DNA from: Corallococcus macrosporus
GTDB lineage: Bacteria; Myxococcota; Myxococcia; Myxococcales; Myxococcaceae
Length of the DNA: 64,000 nt
Assembly: GCF_017302985.1 (NCBI RefSeq)
Contig: NZ_JAFIMU010000007.1
Coordinates: 1,736,001-1,800,000, forward strand
Direction: 5' to 3'
Every line of letters begins with the position of its first letter. Positions within the stretch are counted from its first letter, which is position 1. Shown one piece after another: positions 13,819-41,996 of this stretch. The notes beneath the pieces were generated by a model. It saw nothing but the letters and a program-made list of their open reading frames with translations. It made no database searches and was not told where the DNA came from. The translations under genes were made by a program, and so were the position numbers.

Positions 13819-14244
13819 GGCGCCTCCTCGTGCCGCCGGTCCGGCGGACAAGCGACGAATGGCTGGAGTGTGCGTGAAGGCGCGAGGACTCCCGCGCGTG
13901 CACGCGACTCCGTGAGCCGCGCCCACGCGTGACCGAAACGCGTCCGTGCCGTTCCCGCACGGCGCCCCCGGCACCTCACGCCCTGCGCGGCCCAAACCTG
14001 TCCGACTGTCGGACAGGTTTTCGCGGCTCGGATGGGCGGGCCCTCCCGCGCGCGCCGGCTGGTCCCAACGGGTCCGACTGTCGGACCAGTTCGTACGGCG
14101 CGCCGCTGACGGGCGGCCTCCACCGGAGTTCTCGTCTTCTCATCCATGGCGATGGAACCGCTTGGGACGGCGCGTGGGCTTGTGCGGCCGTGCCGTTCGC
14201 GCTCGGGCCTTGCGGCTCGGCTTCGTGGGCGCCAGAACAGCCCC
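13819..14244. repeat. Gene-poor stretch with two copies of a 21-bp palindromic repeat
   Basis: This 426-nt gap has no convincing gene. It contains a perfect palindrome at 13997-14017 (arms CCTGTCCGAC and GTCGGACAGG around a central T). A second copy is at 14071-14087 (GGTCCGAC, T, GTCGGACC), about 74 nt further on. They are the same family as the nine-unit array near 39.4-40.0 kb. The rest is GC-rich sequence leading to the truncated GNAT gene. No promoter is recognisable. Confidence 0.8.
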
Positions 14245-37287: not shown

Positions 37288-38214
37288 CTAGACCGGATAG
37301 CATCGAGAACGAGGTTTTCCAAGGAGAGTGGCCGCGCCCCCGGTGTCTGTCCTATCTGACCCGGGTCGTGCGCGAACACGGTAGGCCGAGGGGGTGACGC
37401 CGAAGCGAGCGCGGAAGCGGCGGACGAACTCCGACAGGTCCCCGAACCCACACGCGAATGCGATGTCCGCGATGCGCTCTGGACCGGTCCTCAAACGTTC
37501 TGCGGCGAGTGTCAGGCGGCGGCCCAGGATGTAGCTGTAGGGGCTCTCTCCCACCACCTTGCGGAAGGTGCGCAGGAAGTGGTGGCGGCCCATGCCCACC
37601 TCCTCCGCGAGCAGCGCCAGGGAGAGGGGTTCCTCCAGGTGCGCCTCCATCCACCGCACGGCGTTCCCCATGCGCCGTTCGTCCTGGGACGTGACAGGAC
37701 GCGCCCTGCCCTCGTGGACACCGCTCAGCGCCGCGCCCGCCATGCGCAGCACGAGTTCCTCCGCGCCGCGCGAGCCTGGCTGCTCGGCCAGCGCCTGGAC
37801 GTCCGCGAGCAGCGGCGCGAGGCGCTGGAGCGGCGGGAGCCGGTGCACGGGGAAGTCCGTCCGCTTCACGCCGGGCAGTCCTCGCGCCACCTCCTCGATG
37901 AGCTCGGGCTCGAAGTGGAAGGCGACGCAGCGGTCGCCCACGCCGTGCTCGTGGCCGCAGCAGAAGGACGCATGCCGCTCCCCCAGCAGCAGCGAGCCGG
38001 GCGTCAGCAGCACCCGCCCGTTCCGGGAGCGGTAGGTGAAGCTGCCGGACAGCACGGCGGAGATGGACACGCCCGTGTGCTGTTCCTCGAAGACGGGGTC
38101 CTTAGGGCCAGAGCGGCAGACAATCTCTCGCACGCGCCACCCGTCCCCGGAGGCCAGCAGACGCGCGGTGGTCAGGTCCACTTTCCCCAAGTCGGCCACG
38201 GTCCGTCCCTCCAT
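37288..38214 (-). CDS. AraC family transcriptional regulator
   Basis: A 308-residue regulator. The N-terminal half is a cupin-like sensing domain (EEQHTGVSISAVLSGSFTYRSRNGRVLLTPGSLLLGERHASFCCGHEHG) with several His and Cys that could hold a metal or ligand. The C-terminal about 100 residues have two helix-turn-helix units (EEPLSLALLAEEVGMGRHHFLRTFRKVVG and RIADIAFACGFGDLSEFVRRFRARFGVTPSAYR). Only 35 nt separate it from the divergent glycolipid-binding-domain gene, so it probably regulates that gene and itself from the shared interval. The ligand is not known. Confidence 0.92.
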   Translation of the reverse strand: MEGRTVADLGKVDLTTARLLASGDGWRVREIVCRSGPKDPVFEEQHTGVSISAVLSGSFTYRSRNGRVLLTPGSLLLGERHASFCCGHEHGVGDRCVAFHFEPELIEEVARGLPGVKRTDFPVHRLPPLQRLAPLLADVQALAEQPGSRGAEELVLRMAGAALSGVHEGRARPVTSQDERRMGNAVRWMEAHLEEPLSLALLAEEVGMGRHHFLRTFRKVVGESPYSYILGRRLTLAAERLRTGPERIADIAFACGFGDLSEFVRRFRARFGVTPSAYRVRARPGSDRTDTGGAATLLGKPRSRCYPV

Positions 38215-38249
38215 CCTGCCCCCCGCACATCCACCGGGGTGACCGAATC

Positions 38250-39365
38250 ATGGCGATGGAAACAACAACCGTCACGCGCGAGCTCATCTGGCGACGCGTG
38301 ATGGATGACCTGGGTTTCGAGCATGCACGGGCGCGGCGCGGCCAGGAGGGCGCGGAGCTGTCGGGCGTGATTCTCGTCGCGGAGCAGGGCGCACCGCTCC
38401 GAGCGGAGTACTCGGTCGTCTGTGACGAAGCGTGGCGCACGCGTCGGGTGAGCGTGACGCAGACCTGGCGCGGCGAGCGGCGGGCGCTCATGCTGGAGCA
38501 TGACGGCGAGGGCCACTGGCGCAGGGACGGGGCCGTGGCCTCGGAGCTGGAGGGCTGCACGGACGTGGACCTGGGCCTGAGCCCCTCCACCAACGCCCTT
38601 CCCATCCAACGGCTGCGACTCCAGGAGGGAACCACTGCGGAGATCCGCGCGGCGTGGGTGCGGTTTCCCGCGCTGGAGGTCGTGCCCGCGCGTCAGGGGT
38701 ACGCGAGAGTGGGGCCCGCGCGCTATCGCTACGAGAGCCTGGAGAGCGGCTTCACCGCGATGCTGGACGTGGACGCGGAGGGGCTGCCCGTCGAATACGC
38801 CGGCATCTGGCGCAGGCTCGCGGAAGGGCCGGCCGCGTCGGAGTCCGTGACACGGGAGTTCGTGGACGCGCTGGTGAGCCCGGGCCCTTCGAGTGAGCTG
38901 GGCGAAGCGGCGGCCACGTTCGGGTGGCTGGTCGGAGGCTGGGCCGGGACCATCCAGGACCACGACGCGGACGGAAGCATCCGCCAGAGCCAGGGCGAGT
39001 GGTGGTTCCACTGGGTGCTGGAGGGACGGGCGCTGCAGGACGTGTTCATCGTGCCGTCGAGGCACGCGCCTGCACAGTCAGGCCCCGGTGCGAACAGGCG
39101 CTACGGCACCACGGTGCGCACGTTCGACCGGGCCGAGCGGAAGTGGCAGATCACCTGGGTGAGTCCCACGGGCGGCGCCATCAACCGGCTCGCGGGAGGC
39201 CGTGAAGGAGACCGGCTCATCCTGCTGGGTGAGCACCACGGAAAGCCCATCCGCTGGAGCTTTTCCGACATCGGGCCGGACCGCTTCACCTGGCGAGGAG
39301 AGGTACAGGACAGCGCTGGCCAGTGGAGCCTCCAGTCCCGCTTCGACATGCGGCGCATCACCTGA
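38250..39365 (+). CDS. Putative glycolipid-binding domain protein (DUF1089-like) with C-terminal DUF1579-like domain
   Basis: A 371-residue soluble protein of two parts. Residues about 1-190 match the putative glycolipid-binding family (VTQTWRGERRALMLEHDGEGHWRRDGA..., EGCTDVDLGLSPSTNALPIQRL). Residues about 215-371 are a second beta domain (FGWLVGGWAGTIQDHDADGSIRQSQGEWWFHWVLEGRALQDVFIVPS...) that resembles the DUF1579 type. The combination may be a fused ligand-binding pair; the function is not known. The start ATG 38250 is followed two codons later by another ATG. It is divergent from the AraC regulator with a 35-nt gap, so it is the probable target. The repeat array starts 35 nt after the stop. 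Confidence 0.75.
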   Translation: MAMETTTVTRELIWRRVMDDLGFEHARARRGQEGAELSGVILVAEQGAPLRAEYSVVCDEAWRTRRVSVTQTWRGERRALMLEHDGEGHWRRDGAVASELEGCTDVDLGLSPSTNALPIQRLRLQEGTTAEIRAAWVRFPALEVVPARQGYARVGPARYRYESLESGFTAMLDVDAEGLPVEYAGIWRRLAEGPAASESVTREFVDALVSPGPSSELGEAAATFGWLVGGWAGTIQDHDADGSIRQSQGEWWFHWVLEGRALQDVFIVPSRHAPAQSGPGANRRYGTTVRTFDRAERKWQITWVSPTGGAINRLAGGREGDRLILLGEHHGKPIRWSFSDIGPDRFTWRGEVQDSAGQWSLQSRFDMRRIT

Positions 39366-40028
39366 GCCCCAGGCCCCGGACCTCCATGCCGGTTTCCAGA
39401 ACCTGTCTGACAGTTGGACAGGTTTCCGCCGTGCGGGCACGGCGGCCGGCCACAGGCACGAAGTTCCAGAACCTGTCCGACTGTCCGACAGGTCTCCGCT
39501 GCGACGCGGCGGCAGCCCACCTGGCCCCGGGGCTTCAGAACCTGTCCGACTGTCGGACCAGTTTCCGCCGCGCGGACGCGGCAGCCGCCCCAGGCACGAA
39601 GTTCCAGAACCTGTCCGACTGTCGGACAGGTTTCCGCTGCGCGGACGCGGCGGCTGTGCTCAGGCACGAGGTTCCAGCACCTGTCCGGCTGTCGCCGCAC
39701 GGACGCGACGGCAGCCCACCTGGCCCCAGGGCTTCAGAACCTGTCCGACTGTCGGACCGGTTTCCGCAGCGCGGACGCGGTGGCTGCCCGCCCAGGCCCG
39801 GGGTTCAGAACCTGTCCGACTGTCGGACAGGTTTTCGCCGCACCGACGCGGCCGTCCCAGGTACGGGATCCAGAACCTGTCCGACCGGTTTCCGCCGTGC
39901 GGACGCGGCAGCCCACCCAGGCCCCGGAGATTCAAAACCTGTCCGACAGTCGGACAGGTTCGCGCGATACGCCCCGGACGGGCTGTCGCTACCGGTGGCT
40001 CGCCATGCCCTGGCGCGGATGATGCAAC
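39366..40028. repeat. Array of nine palindromic repeats in a 0.66-kb convergent intergenic region
   Basis: No gene lies here. Nine units share arms CCTGTCCGAC and GTCGGACAGG around a central T or A. Unit starts are 39401, 39471, 39540, 39609, 39679, 39739, 39810, 39875 and 39937, so the period is 60-71 nt. Units 4 and 7 are perfect, unit 9 has central A, units 2, 3 and 6 have one or two changes, unit 1 is degenerate, and units 5 and 8 have lost the right arm. The intervals are also alike: most start TTTCCGC followed by GCGGACGCGGC, and end either CAGGCACGAAG-TTCCAGA or CCTGGCCCCGGGGCTTCAGA. The alternation of these two interval types suggests growth by duplication of one- and two-unit blocks. 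All three forward frames are open but carry only repeat-derived peptides. Confidence 0.9.
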
Positions 40029-41996
40029 TCACCACGCCCCGCTTCGAAGGAGGGCAGCGGCGGCATCCAGTCGCGTCAGCAACTCCGCGTGCCGGGTCCG
40101 CACCTCGGCGCCGCCCGCGCGCAGTGCCATGGCCAGGACCTGCGGCAGGTTGAGCGCGGCGCCCGCGCGCAGCCGCTGCTGATAGTGCGCGGTCCAGTCC
40201 TGCGGGATGCGCAGCGACCAGTTGCGCGCGTCCACGGAGCCCGGCGCGTTGTACGTGTCGGGCATGCCCAGCAGGTCCGCGAAGAACACCATCACGCTGC
40301 GCGCACGGCTGGCGAACAGGTCCGCGAACTTCGCCTGCGCGAGCAGCCCGGGGTCCTGCGCCAGCTCGCGCGCGAAGTCCTCGCGCCCCTCCGCTTCCGG
40401 ATGCAGCCGCCACGCGAGGTAGTCCGCCTGGGCGCGCAGCGCGTGCTTCCACTGCCATTCGGACACGAGCCGCCAGAGCGACTTCGTGTCGTGGTTACCC
40501 ACCATCACCCAGTCCTCGGGGGCCACGTTCTCGCTGCGGTACACGTCCGCCGGGTTGTTCAGGTCCGCCTTCTGCGTGACGCGGAAGCGGCCCAGGCCAT
40601 CCCGCGCCATCACGCGCGACAGCTCATGGGGCAGCGTGCTCAGCACCTCGCACAGCACGTCCTCGCGGGCCCGGCCGCGCTCGCGCGCCGTGCGCACCAC
40701 GGAGTCGAAGAGGATGGCGTACCGCCGCACCTGCTCCTCCGGGAGCGACTTCACCCACCCATCCGCGTGACGCGGCACCGAGCGGTCCAATTGCTCCGGC
40801 GCCACGAGGGCGTAGCGCGCCAGCGCCGGATGGTCCGGCAGGTCCGGCGAGGAGAACAGCCGCGCCCCACCCTGCACCGCGCGCAGCGGATCCGCCGAAC
40901 CCGCGCGGTACACCCACGGGCACACGAGCCCGTGCGGATGATCGATGCGCAGCCCGTCGTACTCGGAGAGCATCTTGCCCAGCCGCGCGTCCAGGTAGCG
41001 CAGCACGGGGCCGGGACCGTCCGGCGCGACGTACTGTTCCGGGTCCAGCACCGGGTAGTTCCACGGCTGGCCCTCCGGGTTGGTGCGGCTGGGCGGCGCG
41101 CCCATCAGGTAGTCGCGCAGGAACAGCCCCTGCCGTGCCCACGTGTCCCGGGGCGAGAAGCCAATCTGGAGGTCCCCGTACAGCTTGAGCCCCCACGCCC
41201 CCGCGCGCTCGCGCAGCAGCCCGTGCTGCTCATGCACGAGGAACTGGCGGAAGGCGTACTGCGCCACCGCCTCCGCTTCGACGGTGAGCAGCTCGCGGAT
41301 GCGCGCCTCGGCCTGTGCCTCTTCTCCCGGGCGCGGCGCGAACAGGCGCCCCGCCAGCGAGTCCGCCCAGCCGCGCCAGTCATCCGGCGTGTGGTGCCGC
41401 GTGGCGAGCACGTCGAAGAGCGCATCCCGCTCCAGCCACTCCCGGTGCTCCACGCGGAAGGCCTCGAAGCGCTGCACGAGCACGGGCTCCCGGGTGCGGC
41501 GGAACGTGTCCCACGCCTCCTGGAGCGCCAGCGCCTGTCCCCGGCACGCGGAGTGGTAGCGCGCACCCGGTCCACCGTCCGCGGGCACGTCGGAGGCGAG
41601 CCGGGCCAGCGTGCCGGAGGACAGCAGCGCGCCCCAGGGCCCGTGGGGATCCGTGAGCGGCGCGAGCGCCACGTTCAGCGTGTTGCGGGAGAACAACGTG
41701 CCGTCATAAGGCGACGGGTTGTGCGCGGTGGTCTGCCCCTGCGGCCCCAACTGGATGCCGGTGAAGCCCAGGTCCCGGGCGAAGGCGAGGAAGCGCGCGG
41801 CGCCCTCGGAGTACGGCGAGCCCCGCCCCAGGTCCTCTCCAGGGAGGCCCGGGAAGCTGGGGTCATGGATGCTCAGGACCCAGCGGGTGACGCCCAGCGC
41901 TTCCAGGGCTTCGGTGACGAGCGAGCGGTGCGAATCGGGCAGCGGTGACAGGAGCTCCACACTCCTGACCCTATGGCCCCCCGCCCCATGCGCCAA
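40029..41996 (-). CDS. malQ: 4-alpha-glucanotransferase (amylomaltase)
   Basis: A 655-residue GH77 enzyme. The nucleophile region YDGLRIDHPHGLVCPW (Asp near 348), the acid/base region EDVLCEVLSTLPHELSRVMA, and the transition-state Asp in MVGNHDTKSLWRL are all present, as is GIQLGPQGQTTAHNPSPYDG near the N-terminus. It transfers glucan chains between maltodextrins, in maltose and glycogen metabolism, and could supply longer chains for TreY/TreZ. The start is probably TTG 41996, four bases after AAGGA; GTG 41960 is an alternative. It is 36 nt after the stop of the RND pump on the same strand. The repeat array lies beyond its 3' end. Confidence 0.88.
   Translation of the reverse strand: MAHGAGGHRVRSVELLSPLPDSHRSLVTEALEALGVTRWVLSIHDPSFPGLPGEDLGRGSPYSEGAARFLAFARDLGFTGIQLGPQGQTTAHNPSPYDGTLFSRNTLNVALAPLTDPHGPWGALLSSGTLARLASDVPADGGPGARYHSACRGQALALQEAWDTFRRTREPVLVQRFEAFRVEHREWLERDALFDVLATRHHTPDDWRGWADSLAGRLFAPRPGEEAQAEARIRELLTVEAEAVAQYAFRQFLVHEQHGLLRERAGAWGLKLYGDLQIGFSPRDTWARQGLFLRDYLMGAPPSRTNPEGQPWNYPVLDPEQYVAPDGPGPVLRYLDARLGKMLSEYDGLRIDHPHGLVCPWVYRAGSADPLRAVQGGARLFSSPDLPDHPALARYALVAPEQLDRSVPRHADGWVKSLPEEQVRRYAILFDSVVRTARERGRAREDVLCEVLSTLPHELSRVMARDGLGRFRVTQKADLNNPADVYRSENVAPEDWVMVGNHDTKSLWRLVSEWQWKHALRAQADYLAWRLHPEAEGREDFARELAQDPGLLAQAKFADLFASRARSVMVFFADLLGMPDTYNAPGSVDARNWSLRIPQDWTAHYQQRLRAGAALNLPQVLAMALRAGGAEVRTRHAELLTRLDAAAALLRSGAW

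Follow-up and report, generated by a model that had tools for sequence, protein, structure and literature searches.

Organization of the palindrome array

The window is the whole 64,000-nucleotide stretch of the Corallococcus macrosporus genome that was analysed. Within it, a gene for a Glycolipid_bind domain protein (PF06475; 38301..39365, + strand) and a MalQ-like 4-alpha-glucanotransferase gene (PF02446; 40029..41960, - strand) converge on an intergenic region (39366..40028, bounded by the gene ends at 39365 on the + and 40029 on the - strand) that holds an array of nine palindromic units. The units start at 39402, 39472, 39541, 39610, 39680, 39740, 39811, 39876 and 39938 and together span 39402-39958, with unit-to-unit spacings of 70, 69, 69, 70, 60, 71, 65 and 62 bp. 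Both arms lie within two mismatches of CCTGTCCGACNGTCGGACAGG in seven of the nine. The palindromes of unit 4 (39607..39633, centre T), unit 7 (39808..39835, centre T) and unit 9 (39934..39961, centre A) are perfect; units 2 (39469..39493, centre T) and 6 (39737..39763) have one mismatch, unit 1 (39399..39425, centre A) has two, and unit 3 (39538..39564) is a hybrid with a CCTG left arm and a CCAG right arm. Unit 5 (39677..39695), starting at 39680, has lost its right arm, and the central bases of unit 8 (39873..39890), starting at 39876, are deleted; a first-pass annotation of nine palindromes 60-71 nt apart is therefore right in count and spacing, but two of the units are truncated.

As had been proposed, there are two types of interval, homologous to one another; one ends in GGCACGARGTTCCAG and the other in CCCCGGGGCTTCAG. 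Their order, however, is a-b-a-a-b-b-a-b and not a strict alternation. Because CRISPR spacers are unique and non-homologous, the array is not a CRISPR, in agreement with the earlier reading. The window as a whole has 29 palindrome-arm matches against 10.3 expected, a number reached in none of 100 shuffles, and the further copies noted near 14.0 kb are a two-unit member of the same family (13997..14089, 72 bp apart), in which the palindrome at 13997 is exact and that at 14069 is of the CCAG type with four mismatches. The repeat had no match in an Rfam search or in a blastn search against plasmids, and a scan of 38200-41200 for sigma-70 promoters and terminators gave no site.

Origin and growth of the array

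Orthologues of malQ are present in all 16 Corallococcus genomes. The orthologous site has one palindrome in G016, G018, G019, G020 and G029, four in G027 and nine in the window; in G017, G021, G022, G025 and G026 it has none, and the gap is only 1-11 bp. With zero, one or four copies at the site in other species, a single copy preceded the array. Judged by sequence comparison, the array is the product of one ancestral palindrome between the convergent genes, which duplications of ~70 bp raised to nine, the duplication step being read from the anatomy of the repeat. The tandem growth suggested at first inspection thus agrees with the copy numbers of 0, 1, 4 and 9 among species. The concern that the array might be a sequencing or assembly artefact is unlikely to be warranted, since other assemblies have one or four copies at this same site and Corallococcus gaps elsewhere hold up to 10. 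Other Corallococcus clusters also have spacings of 69-73 bp, and insertions of ~83 bp are seen at two further sites in this genome relative to the orthologous regions of three genomes.

A dispersed repeat family in Corallococcus

The 9.81-Mb genome contains 98 palindromes at up to two mismatches and 114 at up to three, compared with none for the reversed control, so the motif is well above the background frequency that would have undone its interpretation as a family. All 16 Corallococcus genomes have it, with 6-277 copies each at up to two mismatches; with ~100 copies here, the proposal of a dispersed family is confirmed. The palindrome is rare in other genera of the family, and its 17-base core is nearly absent from the remaining order. 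The conserved part is AAACCTGTCCGACWGTCGGACAGGTTT, with A or T at the centre in ~97% of copies, and in the weakly conserved flanks of 300-odd copies nothing but AAA/TTT adjoins the palindrome. Changes in one arm are matched by changes in the other (CCTG/CAGG, CTGG/CCAG, CTTG/CAAG). Of the possible pairing, only an inner stem of 11-12 bp is borne out by column tests on solitary copies and by RNAalifold. The outer arms appear complementary by eye in some copies (for example L297-L300), but a long hairpin of the whole unit was rejected on the same tests, and we put forward no larger structured element.

Only 12 of 188 classifiable copies lie inside called genes and the others are intergenic, as judged with a simple codon-usage gene caller that may miss small genes. 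A palindrome is present in 40 convergent regions, where length alone predicts 23.5 (p=5e-4); between co-directional genes, the upstream stop codon is the nearer gene end for 39 of 45 copies. The dispersed copies thus avoid promoters and are not ordinary operators of the neighbouring genes. Runs of palindromes are also seen within very long open reading frames, with six copies in L079 (2296-2671) and three in L110 (3137-3425); each spacing is divisible by three, which lets the reading frame accommodate the repeat.

A GntR-type gene family accompanies the palindrome

Comparison of palindrome loci in two closed genomes exposed a repeat of ~850 bp that ends at the palindrome and encodes a GntR-family protein (PF00392, E 2e-12), of which this genome has 15 gene copies. 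The protein combines a GntR winged helix-turn-helix with a helical FCD-like domain. Its predicted fold is FadR/FCD-like (pLDDT 81, pTM 0.63), and Foldseek matches it to GntR, NanR, FadR and PmiR structures with E values of 3e-6 to 1e-5, although with TM scores of only 0.35-0.5. Among the proteins L306-L325, 236 conserved residues are followed by long, variable and fast-changing tails; several of these end in a conserved RLWRFI..FLG motif. The palindrome itself occurs in frame within several tails, where it is translated NLSDCRTG, and such a 3' copy or relic exceeds shuffles in ~7 of 20 genes.

An upstream copy is found at all of the Corallococcus genes covered. Here it precedes 15 of 15 GntR genes, 116-137 bp from the aligned start, and in each of 15 Corallococcus genomes, single-gene genomes among them, the lead GntR copy has it ~107-140 bp upstream of the start. 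A conserved, promoter-like TGTCAGA box before the gene is separated from the palindrome by 50, 60, 70 or 79-81 bp in 30 of 38 loci, and thus by steps of one helical turn, with the weight of this pattern limited by shared descent and by two loci that are listed twice. The type of palindrome also follows the protein clade: the A genes of this genome (L306-L312) have CCTG and the B genes (L313-L320) CTGG palindromes, and the sole B-like gene of G018 (L325) has a CTGG-type palindrome too. The GntR copies resemble each other no further than the upstream palindrome, and no conserved neighbour gene lies beside them except at loci that are orthologous between species. The upstream palindromes could have been carried along within a duplicated unit.

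A coupled transposase or RAYT gene, which the first-pass annotation had put forward for checking, was not found: a six-frame search for the Y1 transposase domain PF01797 was negative in all 16 Corallococcus genomes and positive in E. coli and the other controls. Nor do the flanks of the 300-odd copies contain a conserved GTAG/GTGG head at one end of the palindrome. With both PF01797 and a GTAG-like head absent, we do not class the array as REP-RAYT.

Association of gene and palindrome across genera

Among 96 genomes, the gene is present in 22 of 24 that are palindrome-rich and in five of the 72 others (p=7e-15), although these genomes are phylogenetically non-independent and G021-G025 look like one low-copy group. 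The association holds outside Corallococcus, with the gene in seven of eight palindrome-rich genomes versus five of 72 others (p=2e-6), and within Corallococcus gene and palindrome copy numbers are correlated with a rho of 0.74, without phylogenetic correction. There are exceptions: at E 1e-20 the gene is missing from the palindrome-rich G006 and G024, and in G079 it is present with no palindrome upstream. The dispersed palindromes of G006, which has no detectable GntR partner at that threshold, number 14, and many are of the CTTG/CAAG type.

Other genera have genes with 50-56% identity that are not preceded by the palindrome, and several of these carry a related sequence, roughly CCTGTCTGSTTGYCAGACAGG, in the tail; Stigmatella-type genes likewise have the palindrome in the tail and not upstream. 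As a predictive test, the tail variant was read from the GntR genes of other genera and then searched for genome-wide. Its core is found 65 times in G037, 43 in G080, 39 in G042, 28 in G040 and 19 in G041, with 11 in G079, seven in G039 and zero to four, mostly zero to two, in all others of the 96 genomes. A good part of the 65 matches in G037 are gene tails, because this genome has at least 29 of the genes. The at least 29 GntR-family genes of G037 (a 10.26-Mb genome) and the 16 of G039 constitute an unusually large dispersed paralogue family. In G042 the variant palindrome forms tandem arrays with spacings of 59-61 and 80 bp. In another genus, the single-copy homologues L297-L300 (48-50% identity) are preceded by related palindromes, for instance AAGTTGTCCAACAGTTGGACAAGTT and AACTGGTCCGACTGTTGGACCAGTT. 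Across several genera, these genome comparisons show repeat and multi-copy GntR-type gene going together.

The palindrome as a candidate GntR-type operator

The LldR regulator of E. coli binds AAnTGGTCnGACCAnTT (PMC10272880), and a FadR probe of fadL includes CTGGTCCGACC (PMC4259882). The CTGG-type arm, AACTGGTCCGAC, matches the leading 12 positions of the LldR box, with the half boxes 8 bp further apart. In the CCTG type, a centre A turns the left arm into a CTGTCCGACAG dyad, and a centre T does so for the right arm. We infer that the palindrome is a candidate pair of overlapping GntR-type operators, and each copy is probably a binding site of the GntR regulator, as predicted from these resemblances. 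The initial suggestion of a binding-site cluster accordingly gains strong indirect support from the FadR/GntR-type partner family, but not in the sense of ordinary operators of the genes next to the dispersed copies. We also looked for a constant orientation of the centre base and found none, whether relative to the flanks (67 A and 67 T after EM orientation) or to the GntR gene, where the orientations are mixed.

Centre-base polarity

In G018 (dnaA at ~1 kb) the centre base differs from one side of the origin to the other. The same direction was tested in G028 and G027 and held, with cluster-level p values of 0.004, 0.006 and 0.0003 for the three closed genomes. On the + strand, the ratio of A-centred to T-centred palindromes is 28:9 in the right arm of the chromosome and 7:28 in the left (p = 2.3e-6), counting orthologous loci once each and setting the terminus half a chromosome from dnaA. 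The centre base has no polarity relative to the direction of transcription (33 same, 34 opposite), and background A/T skew was rejected as the cause because its sign is opposite to that of the centre-base polarity. The polarity disagrees between species in nine of 25 orthologous groups, so the centre base turns over. Either a hairpin-specific mutational bias or selection could be the cause of the polarity.

Relationship to known repeats and regulators

The repeat is a high-copy intergenic palindrome in the 20-40 bp range of REP sequences and resembles REP/REPIN elements and their RAYT genes (PMC2817692, PMC3116915) in that short intergenic palindromes are present at ~100 or more copies with tandem clusters, in that a gene family bears the same palindrome, and in that repeat variants match gene variants. 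It differs in its partner, which is FadR/GntR-type and present in up to 15 copies here (at least 29 in one other genus), and in the absence of a Y1 transposase from the genus and of a GTAG head; as these last are two defining features, we keep the repeat apart from REP-RAYT proper. The partner resembles FadR/LldR-type GntR regulators (PMC10272880, PMC4259882) in its predicted winged-helix and all-helical C-terminal fold, and the palindrome their operators in its TGGTCnGAC core and its autoregulatory-like upstream site. Known members of that group, however, have few sites near promoters, whereas here there are ~100-280, in arrays and mostly behind genes, and the protein ends in a long tail of variable sequence. 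Imperfect intergenic palindromes such as those of ERIC or MITE type provide another comparison: the insertion units of ~70-85 bp with a palindromic core are similar, but the conserved core here is only ~27 bp and a parent transposon was not found. What is ordinary about the array is its tandem growth from one member of a dispersed palindromic repeat; what is unusual, from comparison of the genomes, is that this repeat follows a multi-copy GntR-type gene through several genera without a RAYT. Our literature search found no description of the repeat, its arrays or the GntR gene family.

Interpretation and alternative explanations

We consider it probable that these elements are a REP/REPIN-like repeat population with the GntR regulator as its partner in trans and the palindrome as its putative site. 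Many short intergenic copies would be served by one gene family, of the FadR/GntR type and not a Y1 transposase, with the 21-27 bp palindrome the most likely binding site. The copy upstream of each GntR gene would probably autoregulate that gene, and the dispersed copies, mostly behind genes, are probably weakly selected extra sites that might act by titration or as roadblocks between genes. The array in the window most likely has no specific function, perhaps providing extra putative binding sites or a roadblock between its convergent genes. More tentatively, and with some doubt, gene and palindrome may have spread and co-diversified across several myxobacterial genera, with the GntR family replacing the transposase and the centre-base polarity set by replication.

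That the array is a classical REP/BIME cluster mobilised by a RAYT has the slimmest of chances. The palindromes recall REP-RAYT systems (PMC2817692) in their copy number, their position between genes and their tandem clusters, as does the palindrome-bordered partner gene. However, PF01797 is absent from the 16 Corallococcus genomes, which refutes a resident Y1 protein, the palindrome has no GTAG-type head, and the idea could be rescued by a lost or highly diverged mobiliser alone. It is unlikely, too, that the repeat is a mobile miniature element moved by some other enzyme, with the GntR gene a mere passenger and the array functionless. In favour of such an element are the insertion polymorphism, the tolerated insertions in open reading frames, the preference for the 3' side of genes and the end of GntR similarity at the upstream palindrome; the 10-bp stepping of the box spacing, the match of subtype to clade and the related palindromes of single-copy homologues in another genus suggest instead a functional tie with the protein.

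A bidirectional transcription terminator block between the convergent genes, as in the multi-stem terminator first proposed, agrees with the strong hairpin, which AAA precedes and TTT follows, with the excess in convergent regions (40 vs 23.5 expected, p=5e-4) and with the 3' bias in co-directional gaps. The 3'-side preference is however not joined by an adequate T run, a consensus scan of 38200-41200 passes no site, many copies lie in divergent regions or upstream of GntR genes, and orthologous loci manage without a palindrome; the terminator is weakly supported at best and has little prospect of being correct. Polar sites that act on replication are exemplified by RTP-Ter of Bacillus, and the palindromes might conceivably be oriented sites of this sort, made of two overlapping winged-helix operators with the centre base setting polarity. 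The polarity by replichore in three closed genomes, its independence of transcription (33:34) and its sign opposite to A/T skew all fit, but the sites are chromosome-wide, vary widely in number between species and disagree in nine of 25 orthologous groups, and we regard this explanation as very improbable.

Returning to the REP/REPIN-like population with a GntR partner, its interest lies in that REP-type repeats are explained by a resident Y1 transposase, and Corallococcus, with as many as 277 REP-like palindromes in a genome, has no such enzyme. With the co-varying regulator family, joint amplification of a DNA-binding protein and its site becomes open to test. The tie of a single palindromic base pair to replication direction is unusual as well, with a mutational or a selective explanation possible. 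Against this reading, a GntR regulator alone cannot move DNA. Orthologous neighbourhoods of G000 and G018 hold the GntR copies L318 and L323, L311 and L324, and L315 and L325, and in at least the first two pairs the genes are closer to paralogues within their own genome than to each other. This resemblance suggests that the copies were homogenised by gene conversion or that insertion happened more than once at the same site.
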